A DNA stretch of 64,000 nt, from positions 806,001 through 870,000 of the forward strand of contig NZ_CP054587.1 in NCBI RefSeq assembly GCF_002025255.2. Reading direction: 5' to 3'. The stretch is from Halolamina sp. CBA1230 (lineage in GTDB: Archaea; Halobacteriota; Halobacteria; Halobacteriales; Haloferacaceae). Shown in pieces: positions 11,919 through 22,613 of this stretch. Numbering within the stretch: position 1 is the first letter of the stretch; the number at the start of each line of letters is the position of its first letter. Under the pieces are notes generated by a model. It had not been told where the DNA came from. It ran no database searches and was given only the letters and a program-made list of their open reading frames with translations. The position numbers were made by a program, and so were the translations under genes.

Positions 11919-13148
11919 ATGCACTACAACTACAGGTATCGGCTCGACCCACCGGAAGCCCTCAAAGAGGAGCTTCTGCACCACGTCGATACTTGTAGGC
12001 AACTCTACAACCACGTTCTCCACCTACTCAATGAGGCAGACGACATCCCAGCACGCTACAAGGTACAGGGACAACTCCCCGACCTCAAGTCGTGGTGGGA
12101 TGACCTCGGAGACGTTCACTCAAAAGTCCTCCAGATGGTCGTCAAGCGCGTCTACGACAACCTCTCAACGCTCAAAGCACAGAGGGAGAACGGGCATGCC
12201 GTGGGAATGCTCAAGTGGAAATCACCCCGGGAGTACCGATCTATCACCTACAACCAGTCCGGCTTCGAACTCAAGAAAACGAGTGGTCGGCCGACGTTGT
12301 GGTTGAGCAAGATCGGCGACATCCCGATCCACCTCCACCGAGACGTCCCCGAGAACGCGTCCATCAAGCAGGTCACGGTCAAGCAGGAACCCACGGGCGA
12401 GTGGCACGCCACGTTCGGCATCGACATGGACGAAGCCGCACCCGAGAAACCCGACAATCCAGAGGAGGTCGTCGGCATCGACTTGGGGATTCTCAAGTAC
12501 ACCCACGACACCGACGGCTGCGCCATCGAGAGCCCCGACTTCAGCGAGGAGCGTGAGCGACTCGAACGCGCTCAACGCGACCTTTCACGCAAGGAACACG
12601 GCTCTGCGAATTGGGAGAAACAACGGCAAGTCGTGGCCGAACGCTACGCCGACCTGAAGCGGAAGCGTCGGGACTTCCTTCACAAGTTGTCGAACTACTA
12701 CGCGAGTGAATACGATTTGGTGGCGGTCGAGGACTTGGACGCGAAGGAACTGGTCGAACTCCCCGGCAACTCGCGGAACCGTGCGGGTGCGGCGTGGGGG
12801 ACGTTCCTGCGAATGCTCGAATACAAATGCCAACGCGAAGGAACACACTTCGTCGCTGTTAATCCGAAAGACACGACGAAGGAGTGTGCATCCTGCGGTG
12901 TCAAGACGGACAATCCACTGTGGGTTCGTGAACACTCGTGTCCCTCGTGTGGGTTCGAGGCAGATAGGGACGCGAACGCGGCGTGGAATATTCTTTCTCG
13001 GGGTTTCGAAGATGTAGGAGTGGTTCACTCCGAATCAACGCCTGTGGAGACTGCGCTCCCTGCGGACACCGTTGTGTCTGCAAAGCGCGTCGTGGAAACA
13101 GGAAGCCCCACCCTCAAGAAGCGAACGGCGCAAGCCGTGAGCGAGTAG
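11919..13148 (+). CDS. tnpB: RNA-guided endonuclease TnpB (IS1341 type)
   Basis: A 409-residue TnpB. The RuvC-like nuclease triad is intact: Asp188 (VVGIDLG), Glu271 (VAVEDLD) and Asp351 (ADRDANAAWNI). The zinc finger between them has Cys323-x2-Cys326 and Cys341-x2-Cys344. TnpB proteins are guided by an RNA made from the element's 3' end and cut DNA next to a transposon-associated motif, which favours element retention; they are the ancestors of Cas12. No internal stop or frameshift is seen, so it may be active. Codon use is less GC-rich than the flanking chromosome, as expected of a mobile gene. Confidence 0.93.
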   Translation: MHYNYRYRLDPPEALKEELLHHVDTCRQLYNHVLHLLNEADDIPARYKVQGQLPDLKSWWDDLGDVHSKVLQMVVKRVYDNLSTLKAQRENGHAVGMLKWKSPREYRSITYNQSGFELKKTSGRPTLWLSKIGDIPIHLHRDVPENASIKQVTVKQEPTGEWHATFGIDMDEAAPEKPDNPEEVVGIDLGILKYTHDTDGCAIESPDFSEERERLERAQRDLSRKEHGSANWEKQRQVVAERYADLKRKRRDFLHKLSNYYASEYDLVAVEDLDAKELVELPGNSRNRAGAAWGTFLRMLEYKCQREGTHFVAVNPKDTTKECASCGVKTDNPLWVREHSCPSCGFEADRDANAAWNILSRGFEDVGVVHSESTPVETALPADTVVSAKRVVETGSPTLKKRTAQAVSE

Positions 13149-17355: not shown

Positions 17356-18507
17356 ATGACCGACGCAGTCTCCGTGACCCACCTCCCGGGCGACCCCGTC
17401 GCCCGCCGGCCGGCGGAGTTCGTCGAGCGCAAGGGGGTCGGCCACCCCGACTCGCTGTGTGACGGCGTTGCCGAGGCGGTCTCGCGGACGCTCTCACGGT
17501 TCTACCGCGACGAGTTCGACCGCGTGCTCCACCACAACACCGACAAGGTCCACCTCGGCGCGGGCCGGGCAACGCCCGAGTACGGCGGCGGCGAGGTCGT
17601 CGACCCGATCTACCTGCTCGTCGGCGGGCGGGCGACGACGAGCGTGAACGGTCGGGAGCTCCCGATCCCGGATCTCGCCCGAGACGCCGCGCGCGAGTAC
17701 GTGCTCGACACCGTTCCCGAACTCGACGCCGAGGACCTGGTGGTCGAGACCCGGATCGGCCGAACCTCGGGCGATCTCGCCTCGCTGTTCGACCGCGGCG
17801 AGGTGCCGCTGGCGAACGACACCAGCTTCGGCGTCGGCCACGGGCCGGGCTCACCGGTCGAGCGCTTCGTCCGGACGCTCGAACCCCGGCTCCACGCCGA
17901 GATCGACGCCGTCGGGAAGGACGTGAAGCTGATGGCCTCGCGGCGCGGCGACGCGGTCGACCTCACGGTCGCCGCCGCGGTCGTCGACCGCCACGTCGCC
18001 GGCCGTGAGGAGTACCACGAAGTGCTCGATCGCGTGGACGCGCTCGCCCGCGAGCACGCCGCGGACCGCCTTGACTGCCCGCTCTCGGTCCGGGTGAACG
18101 CCGCCGACGACGACGAGTCGGTGTACCTCACGACCACGGGGCTCTCCGCGGAGGCGGGCGACGACGGCGCCGTCGGCCGGGGAAACCGCGCGAACGGCCT
18201 GATCACGCCGGCGCGACCGATGAGCCTGGAGGCGACCGCCGGCAAGAACCCCGTCACCCACGTCGGGAAGCTGTACAACCTCCTCGCGCTGCGGATCGCC
18301 GGGACGCTCTCGACCGACCTCGGCGCGGCCCACTCCTGTGTGCAACTGCTCTCGCGGATCGGGAGCGCGGTCGACGAGCCCCACGCTGTGGACGTCGAGA
18401 CGACCGTGGAGGACGGGGCTGCGGTCCGCGACGTCGTCGACGACGAACTCGCTTGGATCGACGAACTGACCGAGGATCTGCTCGCCGGCGACGTCGACGT
18501 GTTCTAG
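17356..18507 (+). CDS. metK: S-adenosylmethionine synthetase, archaeal type
   Basis: A 383-residue archaeal methionine adenosyltransferase (COG1812 type), making SAM from ATP and methionine. The signature GHPDSLCDG is at residues 29-37. Other conserved blocks are VHLGAGRA, DTSFGVGHGPGSPVE, GKDVKLMASRRGD and SLEATAGKNPVTHVGKLYN. This family shares little overall similarity with bacterial MetK. The frame is open far upstream, but a TTAT stretch at about 17328 sits 28 bases before the ATG at 17356. The TAG stop shares a CTAG tetranucleotide with the convergent ZIP gene. Confidence 0.93.
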   Translation: MTDAVSVTHLPGDPVARRPAEFVERKGVGHPDSLCDGVAEAVSRTLSRFYRDEFDRVLHHNTDKVHLGAGRATPEYGGGEVVDPIYLLVGGRATTSVNGRELPIPDLARDAAREYVLDTVPELDAEDLVVETRIGRTSGDLASLFDRGEVPLANDTSFGVGHGPGSPVERFVRTLEPRLHAEIDAVGKDVKLMASRRGDAVDLTVAAAVVDRHVAGREEYHEVLDRVDALAREHAADRLDCPLSVRVNAADDDESVYLTTTGLSAEAGDDGAVGRGNRANGLITPARPMSLEATAGKNPVTHVGKLYNLLALRIAGTLSTDLGAAHSCVQLLSRIGSAVDEPHAVDVETTVEDGAAVRDVVDDELAWIDELTEDLLAGDVDVF

Positions 18508-19280
18508 CCGACCGCGGCGTCGACGACCACGAGCAGGACGAAGCCGACGATGAACGCGGCCGTCGCGGCGTCAGCGTACCCGTGGCCGTGGCTGGAGGGC
18601 ACCATCTCCCGGAGGACGACCGCGAGCATCGCGCCCGCGGCGAAGCCGGCGGCGACGGGGAAGATCCCCGCCGCGAGGCCGACGAGCGCGAAGCCGAACA
18701 CCGACCCCATCACCTGCGGGACCGTTCCGGAGAGCGTCGTGTACAGTAGCACCTTCCCCGAGGAGACGCCGGACTGGTTCACCGGGACAGCGAAGGCGAA
18801 CCCGTCGGGAACGTTCTGGAGCGCGATCACGACCGCGAGCACGAGCGCCACCTCCTCGAGGCCGGAGGCGTAGGCGATCCCCATCGCCAGCCCCTCGGGC
18901 GCGTTGTGGATCGTGATCGCGCCGCCGACCAGGACGGCCCGCCGGACGCGGTCGTCGAGGCCGTCGAGGTCGATCCCCTCGGCGTGGCCACGCCAGCGGC
19001 GGTACTCGCCGTGGACGTGCGGAATGATCCGATTCCCGGCGAGCAGGCCGAACCCGCCGACAGTGACGCCGAGCATCACCTCCCACAGCGCCCCCTGTTC
19101 GGTGCCGGGGATGATGAGCCCGAACACCGACGCCGCGACCATGATCCCGCCCGCGAGGCCGAGCGCGGCGTCGTACGTGCGGTGGCTCACGCGGGCGCCG
19201 AACAGGATCGGGATCGCGCCGAGGCCAGTGGCCAGCCCCACCAGCGTGCTCACCACCAGCATCGACTGGAACGGCGTCAT
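18504..19280 (-). CDS. ZIP family divalent metal transporter
   Basis: A 258-residue protein with eight likely membrane segments. The metal site of TM4 reads HNAPEG at residues 125-130; the TM5 counterpart reads QNVPDG at 155-160 in place of the usual H-x2-E-x-x pattern. A His-rich cytoplasmic loop (HVHGEYRRWRGHAEG) lies between TM3 and TM4. ZIP proteins of the GufA branch import Zn2+ or related ions. The changed TM5 site suggests altered selectivity or a single metal site, which is inference. Confidence 0.85.
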   Translation of the reverse strand: MTPFQSMLVVSTLVGLATGLGAIPILFGARVSHRTYDAALGLAGGIMVAASVFGLIIPGTEQGALWEVMLGVTVGGFGLLAGNRIIPHVHGEYRRWRGHAEGIDLDGLDDRVRRAVLVGGAITIHNAPEGLAMGIAYASGLEEVALVLAVVIALQNVPDGFAFAVPVNQSGVSSGKVLLYTTLSGTVPQVMGSVFGFALVGLAAGIFPVAAGFAAGAMLAVVLREMVPSSHGHGYADAATAAFIVGFVLLVVVDAAVG

Positions 19281-19382
19281 CGAGGGGAGGAGGGAGTGCC
19301 GGGCGTAAATACGCTCTGGGGAGAACTCTAAAAGACAGACAAGGGATATCTTGAAGTTGATACCTTGCTAATTAGTGTCAAT

Positions 19383-21023
19383 ATGGAATTACGGGAGCTC
19401 GCCGAGCAAGACTGGAACAGCCACGAGCGGAAACGATTCATAAAGGACGAAACGAAATCGAGTACCGACTCGTTCGACCCGGAGTCGTTCAAACACGACG
19501 GTTTCAGCGACCGTGAGAAATACCTCGAAACCTACGTTCCCGCACTCGCCGAGGAAGAACGGCTCGAGACGGAGTTGAACAATTTCACTCCGCCGCGATT
19601 GAACGCACTCAACGATTCTCCCTATCAAGCGCTCGTCATCCGATACGGGATTCTCCGCCAACTGATTCAACAGCCCGACTACAGTATGCCCAAGGACGGG
19701 CTTCTCGAGAACGTCCAGACGTGGCAACTCGATATTCTGAACGAGTATTCGGAGGACGAATTCCCGGATTCCGACGATCTGCTCCATCTCGCCGAGGCCG
19801 CCGTCGACTACAAGAACGATGTCGACGACTCGGAGCTCCACATGGTGTACAGCTATTTCGAGCTTCACAACCGCTCCCGGGAACAGAAACACGAGTACTA
19901 CACCTGGCTGGATTTCTTCAAACGCCTCTCCGCGATCGAACGGTTCCCGAAAGTTCGGCGTTCCGACAGCCCCGAGCACGCGCTGGACACGATCGAGAAG
20001 GGACTCTGGTCACTTCAGGAGCAGGCGATCGTCTACGAGGTGAACACCGACAGCACGAACGAGCTCGTCGGTATTCCCGAGGAGTATATCGACTACGTCC
20101 GGGACTGGCTCTACTACGAGATGTCCGAAGAGAACTACCTCCGGATGCTGGAGACCCTCGAACCGTTCGACAGACAGTCGCTACTCGTCGACATCCGTGA
20201 ACAGTACGGAATCGAATCGAAGACCGGGGGGCGCAACGACAGGCGCCGCGAGAGTATCGTGAGAGGCGGCGTGTTCCCGAGCGAACTCCTCAGATACGCT
20301 CTCACGAAAGACGAACTCAAGGGGATCGTCGATCGATACGGACTCGACGCTCACAAGCAGAAAACTGAGGAGATGATTTCGGCGATCATCGACTACTTCG
20401 AGCAGTCTCAGAAGTCGGTCGGGGACGACGATCCGGCCGTCGAACTGTATCTGAGCGCGTACGAGGACATCGCCGACGGGACGGTACAACAGGTCCCTCC
20501 ACAGCTACAGGACCTCGTCGATGCGGACAACCCCGGCGACAAACTCGATATCCTCTTCGAGGACGCGACGGCCGAGATATTCAGCGAGGTGTTCAACCTC
20601 GACGGAACGAACCTCCTCGGCCAACGGGCAAACGGTGTCGTCGCGGACGGGGAGGTCGAACAGGGCGACAAGTGGCTGCTGTGGGACAACAAGCGCCGAG
20701 CCCGGCAGTTCAAACTGGGCAGCACCGCACGCAGTAAGATCAAGAGCTACATCGACACCAAGGCCGGACAGCACGAAGTCGAGTGGTTCCTCATTATCGC
20801 TCCCGAGTTCAGCGAGAACGCGGAGACTCACGCCGAACAGCTCGAGATGCAAGTCGGTCGCGATATCCGACTCGTACGCGCTGACGACTTCAAGCAGCTA
20901 GCCGAACAGTGGCGCGAAGAGTACGCCGACGACGGACACGAGCTACCGCTCTCGATCTTCTTCGGTTCCGGGTTGTTCGACCCCGACATGGCGATGCAGG
21001 TTCTGGATCAGCAGTTCTCGTGA
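19383..21023 (+). CDS. Solitary 546-residue protein with PD-(D/E)XK-like C-terminal domain
   Basis: I do not recognise this protein as a named family. Residues 1-380 are mostly helical and charged, with short aromatic motifs (EYYTWLDFFKRL, YVRDWLYYEMSEENYLRML). From about residue 390 a restriction-endonuclease-like core appears: helix LFEDATAEIFSEVF, then Asp422 and beta-strand KWLLWDNKRR with Asp435-x-Lys437. This spacing (D-x12-D-x-K) fits PD-(D/E)XK nucleases. A beta strand (EVEWFLIIAPEF) follows. The gene is isolated between a ZIP gene and NOP5, and its base composition is more A/T-rich than its neighbours. No methyltransferase is adjacent. A defence or DNA-repair nuclease is possible but unproven. 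Confidence 0.75.
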   Translation: MELRELAEQDWNSHERKRFIKDETKSSTDSFDPESFKHDGFSDREKYLETYVPALAEEERLETELNNFTPPRLNALNDSPYQALVIRYGILRQLIQQPDYSMPKDGLLENVQTWQLDILNEYSEDEFPDSDDLLHLAEAAVDYKNDVDDSELHMVYSYFELHNRSREQKHEYYTWLDFFKRLSAIERFPKVRRSDSPEHALDTIEKGLWSLQEQAIVYEVNTDSTNELVGIPEEYIDYVRDWLYYEMSEENYLRMLETLEPFDRQSLLVDIREQYGIESKTGGRNDRRRESIVRGGVFPSELLRYALTKDELKGIVDRYGLDAHKQKTEEMISAIIDYFEQSQKSVGDDDPAVELYLSAYEDIADGTVQQVPPQLQDLVDADNPGDKLDILFEDATAEIFSEVFNLDGTNLLGQRANGVVADGEVEQGDKWLLWDNKRRARQFKLGSTARSKIKSYIDTKAGQHEVEWFLIIAPEFSENAETHAEQLEMQVGRDIRLVRADDFKQLAEQWREEYADDGHELPLSIFFGSGLFDPDMAMQVLDQQFS

Positions 21024-21056
21024 CAGACGCAGTCAGCTACTCTCCCCGTTCGAGAA

Positions 21057-21088: not shown

Positions 21089-21988
21089 ATGAACGATCTG
21101 AGTTCCTCGAGTGCTGGATGGTTCGCCGGCGTCGACCCCGGCGACCCCGAGGCTGCGGCGGCCGCCGTCAGCGAGGGCGAGGCCGATGAACCGCGTGACT
21201 GGCCCGCGCTGGCCGTCGAGTCGGGGTTCGCCGCCGACGAGGACGAGTACTACGACCGCCTCCACGAGGCGACCGTCAGGGCTGCCCGCGAGGCCGCCCA
21301 GGCCGCCGAACGCGCGGACGACCAACAGTTGATCCACTCGTTGCGGGCGATGGACGACGCCGAGCGAACCGCGAACGAGCTCGCCGAGCGACTGGAGGAG
21401 TGGGCCGGCGCGTTACTAGCGGTCGAGACGGACGCGTCGGGGCTCGACTTCGCGGCCGTCGTCGCCGACTACGAGCCGACGGACGCGACCGAGGAGCGGG
21501 CCGTCTCGCTCGCCCAGCGTGCGGTCGACCTCCGCGAGGAGCGCGACGACCTGCGGGCGTTCGTCGAGCGCCGCGCGCCCGAGGTGGCGCCCAACCTCGC
21601 GGAGATGGCCGGCCCCGTGCTCGCGGCGCGGCTGATTTCGCTTGCGGGCGGGCTGGAGTCGCTCGCGAAGAAACCCTCGGGCACCGTGCAGGTGCTCGGC
21701 GCCGAGGACGCGCTGTTCGCGCACCTCCGCGGGCACGCCCCCTCGCCCAAGCACGGCGTGATCTTCACCCACGAGTTCGTCCGCGGCACGCGGCCGGAGG
21801 ACCGCGGCTCGGCGGCGCGGGCGCTGGCCGGGAAGCTCTCCATCGCCGCCCGGATCGACCACTACGCCGGCGAGCGCCGCGAGAGCGTGCACGAGGACCT
21901 CCGCGATCGGATGGCGACGATCCGCGCGCGTGCAGACGGGGATACGGCGGGTGAGGACGATGACGACACGGAGGAGAACGATGAGTGA
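21089..21988 (+). CDS. NOP5/NOP56 family C/D-box RNP scaffold protein
   Basis: A 299-residue archaeal Nop5. The C-terminal Nop domain is clear: GTVQVLGAEDALFAHLRG, then SPKHGVIFTHEFVRG and the RGSAARALAGKLSIAARIDH segment that binds L7Ae-bound kink-turns. The N-terminal domain binds fibrillarin, and the middle is the coiled-coil dimer region (about residues 150-190). It assembles the box C/D sRNP that guides 2'-O-methylation of rRNA and tRNA. The tail is acidic (GEDDDDTEENDE). It overlaps the fibrillarin gene by eight bases. Confidence 0.93.
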   Translation: MNDLSSSSAGWFAGVDPGDPEAAAAAVSEGEADEPRDWPALAVESGFAADEDEYYDRLHEATVRAAREAAQAAERADDQQLIHSLRAMDDAERTANELAERLEEWAGALLAVETDASGLDFAAVVADYEPTDATEERAVSLAQRAVDLREERDDLRAFVERRAPEVAPNLAEMAGPVLAARLISLAGGLESLAKKPSGTVQVLGAEDALFAHLRGHAPSPKHGVIFTHEFVRGTRPEDRGSAARALAGKLSIAARIDHYAGERRESVHEDLRDRMATIRARADGDTAGEDDDDTEENDE

Positions 21989-22613
21989 GCTCCCTGCCGG
22001 CGTCGAACGTCGCACCGTCGCGGGCGAGGAGCGGTTGACGACCGCCGGCGAACCGGTGTACGGCGAGCCGACCGTCGACGGGCGGCGGGTGTGGGACGCC
22101 GGGCGGTCGAAGCTGGGGGCGATGCTCGAACTCGGGATGGACACCCACCTCGCGGGCGGCGAGTCGGTGCTGTACCTCGGCGCCGCCTCCGGGACGACCG
22201 TGAGCCACGTCGCCGACTTCGCGGGGCCGACGTACGCGGTGGAGTTCGCGCCCCGTCCCGTTCGGGACCTGGTCGACGTGGCCGAGAGCCGGCCGAACCT
22301 GTTCCCGCTGCTGGCCGACGCGCGGAAACCCCGGGAGTACGCCGGCGTCGTGGAGTCCGGGCTGGACGTGATCGTCCAGGACGTGGCGACCCGCGGGCAG
22401 GCCGATGTGGCGATCCGGAACGCGGGGTTCCTCGCCGACGACGGTCTGCTGCTGGCGGCGATCAAGGCCCGCAGCGAGGACGTGGTGGCCGAACCAGACG
22501 AGGTGTTCGAGGAGGTTCGGGAGACGCTGGGCGAGGCGTACGAACTGCTCGAGACCGCGCGGCTGGATCGCTACCACGACGACCACCTCGGGGTCGTCGC
22601 GCGCAAGCGGTGA
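21981..22613 (+). CDS. flpA: Fibrillarin-like rRNA/tRNA 2'-O-methyltransferase
   Basis: A 210-residue fibrillarin. SAM-binding motif VLYLGAASGTTVSHVAD is at residues 63-79, with YAVEFAPRPVRDL and VIVQDVATRGQADV following as in archaeal FlpA. It is the catalytic subunit of the box C/D sRNP and needs Nop5, encoded just upstream. Translational coupling is expected because ATGAGTGA contains its ATG and the nop5 stop. The frame stays open upstream inside nop5, but MSELPAGV matches the usual start. Confidence 0.94.
   Translation: MSELPAGVERRTVAGEERLTTAGEPVYGEPTVDGRRVWDAGRSKLGAMLELGMDTHLAGGESVLYLGAASGTTVSHVADFAGPTYAVEFAPRPVRDLVDVAESRPNLFPLLADARKPREYAGVVESGLDVIVQDVATRGQADVAIRNAGFLADDGLLLAAIKARSEDVVAEPDEVFEEVRETLGEAYELLETARLDRYHDDHLGVVARKR

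Follow-up and report, generated by a model that had tools for sequence, protein, structure and literature searches.

A horizontally mobile gene of Halobacteria encoding a predicted FokI-type nuclease with a proposed role in defence

Described restriction nucleases and the Halolamina locus

Type II restriction endonucleases are hard to detect by similarity (PMC10609329), and defence by single genes has been little explored in archaea. In the Type IIS restriction-modification (R-M) system of FokI, the cleavage domain (PF09254; PDB 1FOK/2FOK) is placed after a larger N-terminal module. Mrr-type Type IV enzymes are solitary restriction-like nucleases that are patchy in Halobacteria and show no anticorrelation with Dam there (PMC6471742). 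Restriction endonuclease-like genes without a linked methylase have also been described, and many of these solitary genes are fragments or parts of separated systems (Ershova et al. 2012, PMC3488263).

In this study, we analysed a window of 64,000 nucleotides from Halolamina sp. CBA1230 (NZ_CP054587.1, positions 806,001 to 870,000) and describe a gene on its forward strand (19383..21023) that encodes a protein of 546 amino acids. The window protein appears to share with FokI the type and size of the cleavage domain, its C-terminal position behind a larger N-terminal module and the order of its elements, namely E-helix, (P/A)DG, DxK, then helix and strand. However, Ala stands in place of the Pro of the FokI PDG, no similarity to the FokI recognition domain was detected, and the two cleavage domains are linked only via a family of haloarchaeal proteins (hereafter the bridge family), to which the window domain has about 20-25% identity. 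Unlike the FokI system, the window gene has no adjacent cognate methylase, and no conserved partner was found in 19 copies. The window family resembles Mrr-type enzymes in being solitary and patchy in Halobacteria, but the window protein is unmatched by the Mrr_cat and mREase_IV models and belongs to a different PD-(D/E)XK branch. It likewise resembles the solitary restriction endonucleases of Ershova et al. in having no linked methylase; whereas many of those are fragments or belong to separated systems, the window gene is a full-length, conserved and repeatedly transferred single gene. Among the anti-phage defence proteins of PADLOC-DB 2.0.0, no match to the window protein was obtained even at E=10.

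The open reading frame begins with ATG at 19383 and its stop codon ends at 21023, which agrees with the coordinates given in a preliminary description of the window, and it lies, as also reported there, in an A/T-richer island between housekeeping genes. An alternative TTG start 18 bases upstream is possible, but homologues align from the ATG. On the left side lies a gene for a ZIP zinc transporter (18507..19280, reverse strand; PF02535), followed one gene further left by S-adenosylmethionine synthetase, and on the right side lie Nop5 and fibrillarin (21089..22613, forward strand; PF01798 and PF01269). The GC content of the nuclease gene is 57.8%, compared with 67.5% in the surrounding 20 kb, and sliding windows gave 0.53-0.61 across the gene against 0.70-0.74 on either side. 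The same tendency holds in the family, since the nuclease gene falls below the average of its locus in 18 of 19 copies, the exception being locus L047. A promoter-like element, ATCTTGAAGT, is located 35 bases before the ATG (19348..19357, forward strand), and similar sequences of the form (A/T)TTGAAGT occur 33-36 bases 5' of the ATG in most copies, at otherwise unrelated sites; the element travels with most copies of the nuclease gene. Another A/T-richer patch of the window (GC 0.58-0.61) holds a 409-residue open reading frame (11919-13148, forward strand) that reads like TnpB of the IS200/IS605 group, with a C-terminal CxxC zinc motif and DRDxNAAWNI.

A predicted FokI-type domain behind a conserved N-terminal region

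The C-terminal third of the window protein is very probably a PD-(D/E)XK nuclease domain of the FokI type, spanning residues about 372-509 (20496..20909, forward strand). The preliminary description had proposed a PD-(D/E)XK-like domain, and profiles of the bridge family uphold this call and sharpen it to the FokI type. With the Pfam FokI_cleav_dom model (PF09254), the window protein gave a sub-threshold match over residues 369-462 (E=0.037, 13.9 bits against a cut-off of 25 bits), and the best single member of the family reached E=0.013. The bridge family consists of haloarchaeal FokI-domain proteins of about 450 amino acids (loci L077-L082 and L085; alignment A3), and it was found independently, by searching Halobacteria with the Pfam FokI model, which returned seven matches above the curated cut-off. 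Its nuclease domain is homologous to residues 375-509 of the window protein, with E=7.8e-5 between the two families by hhalign and values down to 7e-8 by hmmsearch. With HMMs built from the bridge family alone, and 2000 shuffled and 19 reversed sequences as controls, all 19 members of the window family scored 22.5-32.6 bits against a best control of 10.7 with the first model, and 15.8-34.2 bits against a best control of 6.2 with the second. In a comparison with the PDB, the bridge family in turn matched FokI itself (E=2.6e-4), and the alignment paired the PDG and DTK motifs; FokI still came out at the top rank when a mixed profile was used (E=0.012).

Through the bridge family, the putative catalytic residues Asp422 (20646..20648, forward strand) and Asp435 and Lys437 of the D-x-K motif Asp435-Asn436-Lys437 (20685..20693, forward strand) align with the aspartate of the FokI PDG and with the FokI DTK, respectively. 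Their numbering in the preliminary description was correct, and all three are invariant in 19 of 19 copies as well as across the bridge family. The placement of Asp435 in a beta strand is predicted from homology to FokI. AlphaFold models had a pLDDT of 37.8 for the full length and 41.5 for residues 366-546, both from 5-sequence alignments too shallow to use, and a Foldseek search with the latter low-pLDDT model returned matches at noise level only. The bridge family and the window family are separate families, with about 23% identity in the shared domain and no similarity detected in the N-terminal half; that half of the bridge family is another unrecognised region, carrying a FPYWGFKGMNGMMFFN motif ahead of the FokI-type C-terminal domain. 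Scans of viral collections found no member of the bridge family.

The N-terminal part of the window protein (about 370 residues, 19383..20495, forward strand) had been described as free of any recognised domain, and this still holds, as no match above threshold was found for residues 1-370 in Pfam, NCBIfam, PADLOC or the PDB, and hmmscan of the whole protein, of all 19 members and of consensus segments gave nothing credible for this region. Pfam called neither a recognised DNA-binding domain nor an EVE, SRA, YTH or similar reader of modified bases. Residues 1-370 are predicted to be mostly helical in a low-confidence model, and they were seen only together with a nuclease domain of the window type. 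By eye, residues 309-345 (20307..20417, forward strand), which are conserved in alignment A1, resemble a helix-loop-helix of the SAP or HeH kind; Pfam called no SAP domain there, and we regard the resemblance as a lead rather than a result. Matches to Cas2, Exo5 and Ku-like proteins were weak and confined to single members or to the consensus, and were set aside as chance.

Conservation, decay and mobility of the family

Among 391 genomes of Halobacteria, counted as one genome per species, 18 further intact full-length homologues were found with 61-84% identity to the window protein, the closest (84%) on a contig of Halolamina salifodinae. Intact copies occur in 18 of these genomes, with 19 copies in total when the window's own is included, and six pairs gave dN/dS of about 0.04-0.13. 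These homologues and ratios establish the window open reading frame as a real gene under strong purifying selection. The family alignment has a mean column identity of 79%. Its N-terminal and nuclease parts are equally conserved, thus the whole chain is under selection. In 393 genomes of the phylum searched with a full-length profile, homologues were confined to Halobacteria, and a match in G264 with 30% identity was dropped as a homologue because it falls in a quinone-oxidoreductase-like open reading frame. Of 7 genomes of the genus, 5 lack the gene, as do about 95% of the searched genomes of Halobacteria.

Decayed copies of the gene also exist. In G246 (locus L049), a MITE-like insertion of about 130 bases splits the gene. 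Its inverted ends are imperfect, and a direct repeat of 13 bases, CCTTCAAACGGCT, borders it as the target duplication. In G350 the gene is split at contig ends, and G048, G218 and G210 retain fragments.

Several lines of evidence indicate that the nuclease gene moves between genomes. In another Halolamina genome (G004, locus L071), just a short spacer separates the ZIP sequence from that of Nop5, and comparison with this empty site delimits the inserted segment approximately at 19316..21047, as left homology stops near 19316 and right homology begins near 21047 by eye (BLAST resumes at 21119). Thus about 1.7 kb, essentially the nuclease gene alone, has been gained or lost. Neither transposon-type terminal inverted repeats nor a target duplication was found at this segment, and in the 160 bases on each side terminal direct or inverted repeats were no stronger than in shuffled sequence. 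The 19 copies are spread over about 15 different neighbourhoods, copies of the Natrialbaceae type (f7) fall in separate branches of the protein tree, and one genome, G313, carries two divergent copies. The Halorubrum virus Humcor1 (MW344765), a provirus whose induction was seen in a virus stock (PMC7911831), encodes a family member, HrrHm1_140, annotated as 'hypothetical protein'. In Halorubrum rubrum, a member lies between the corresponding viral genes of a provirus-like region that is related to Humcor1. A further copy is present on plasmid pNVE500 of Natrinema versiforme. The best reading of these observations is that the nuclease gene is horizontally mobile. Its nuclease family, which is well conserved and has been transferred repeatedly, is unnamed in Pfam, NCBIfam, PADLOC and PHROGs.

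The nuclease gene had been described as solitary and without a methylase partner, which extends to the family, as no neighbour family is shared across the 19 copies beyond the syntenic backbone, with neighbouring genes called by a simple composition heuristic. Most copies, including that of the window, are not within an evident defence island. Individual copies do adjoin restriction genes, namely Mrr and a D12 methylase in G016 (the only genome in which a D12 methylase was seen beside the nuclease gene), Mrr in G074, and Type IIG and PLD-SNF2 genes in G404. In five genomes (L032, L037, L040, L043 and L045) the nuclease gene is located 5' of a neighbouring DUF7115 gene and occurs in both orientations. 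A UPF0175 gene pair in one Halorubrum and an Mrr gene in another stand between the nuclease gene and DUF7115, and this intergenic spot, whose cargo varies, is a possible haloarchaeal cargo hotspot. A gene for a YdjM-family membrane protein directly adjoins the nuclease gene in Humcor1 (L061) and in two Halorubrum chromosomes (L032 and L037), and in both Halolamina loci it is found at a distance of a few kb; this may reflect chance or a weak association.

Proposed function and alternative explanations

We propose that the family is probably a horizontally mobile, stand-alone restriction-type nuclease that would defend its carrier, whether cell, provirus or plasmid, against foreign DNA. This reading is drawn from the intact FokI-type site, the transfer of the gene on its own, its carriage by virus and plasmid, its frequent loss and its occasional restriction neighbours. 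Of the earlier suggestion of a stand-alone defence nuclease, the stand-alone part is borne out by the 19 copies, and the defence part fits virus and plasmid carriage and patchy transfer and stays conjectural. The N-terminal 370 residues may act as a target-recognition or sensor module, recognising a DNA site, a modified base or a structure linked to infection, and the C-terminal domain would then cut DNA by means of Asp422, Asp435, Lys437 and a divalent metal. By analogy with FokI, cutting would probably follow the pairing of two copies. The DNA of the carrier might be spared by dependence on modification, by a non-adjacent orphan methylase, by absence of sites or by conditional activation, and any specific mode of targeting is at best tentative. 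If confirmed, the family would extend the restriction factors of haloarchaea by one that stands alone, would couple FokI-type cleavage to a new targeting domain, and would exemplify the carriage of a stand-alone restriction nuclease by archaeal viruses.

One conceivable version is a single-gene antiviral system not described so far, in which the N-terminal domain would sense not a fixed unmethylated site but a virus-specific signal, such as a modification, a replication structure or a viral protein. With such sensing the gene could move freely between hosts, and viruses could carry it as a means of superinfection exclusion.

A narrower form of the defence reading, and an equally tentative one, is that of a Type IV-like nuclease cutting a specific modification absent from its hosts. 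This would account for transfer without self-toxicity, the 19 copies are stand-alone nucleases without a methylase as Type IV enzymes are, and Mrr-type Type IV genes lie beside two of them. On the other hand, no Type IV profile and no modified-base reader was matched in Pfam or PADLOC. Moreover, among 18 carriers and 20 non-carriers we found no anticorrelation of the nuclease gene with methylase genes. D12 methylase genes occur in 9 of the carriers and 10 of the non-carriers, C5 methylase genes in 12 and 11, respectively, and DndE is present in one carrier, in a coarse comparison that ignores sequence context and is still compatible with a particular modified site. The preliminary suggestion of a modification-dependent nuclease thus gains nothing from these tallies, and a simple dependence on C5, D12 or Dnd marks is not supported; the tallies argue against the idea that those marks are generally not tolerated, and they give no argument against a specific site.

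The same tallies bear on an unlikely alternative, in which a Type II(S)-like restriction enzyme would rely for protection on a methylase from another locus of the genome, namely a haloarchaeal orphan methylase, since neither C5 nor D12 methylases track the nuclease gene. Such separated systems have a documented precedent, in that 57 of 272 solitary restriction endonuclease genes have a predicted distant methylase (PMC3488263), and orphan methylases are widespread in Halobacteria (PMC10609329). The FokI-type domain and the D12 methylase beside the G016 copy would also suit this explanation, but toxicity would be expected wherever a gene that moves by itself between families enters a host without the methylase.

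Spread by cutting recipient DNA, as a selfish homing-type nuclease or a component of transposition, would explain a single gene at many sites with a clean empty site, its carriage on one virus and one plasmid, and its repeated placement beside DUF7115. However, homing returns to one target site, whereas the 19 copies lie in about 15 neighbourhoods, and the gene has no intron or intein context, no terminal repeats in the adjoining 160 bases that exceed those of shuffled sequence, and no transposase or conserved partner. We consider this explanation improbable. A role as a host nuclease of DNA repair or recombination is very improbable: PD-(D/E)XK folds do serve repair, and a Dna2-like helicase-nuclease gene adjoins the nuclease gene in one genome (L048), but a gene missing from most genomes of the genus and the class also has decayed copies and is carried by a virus.
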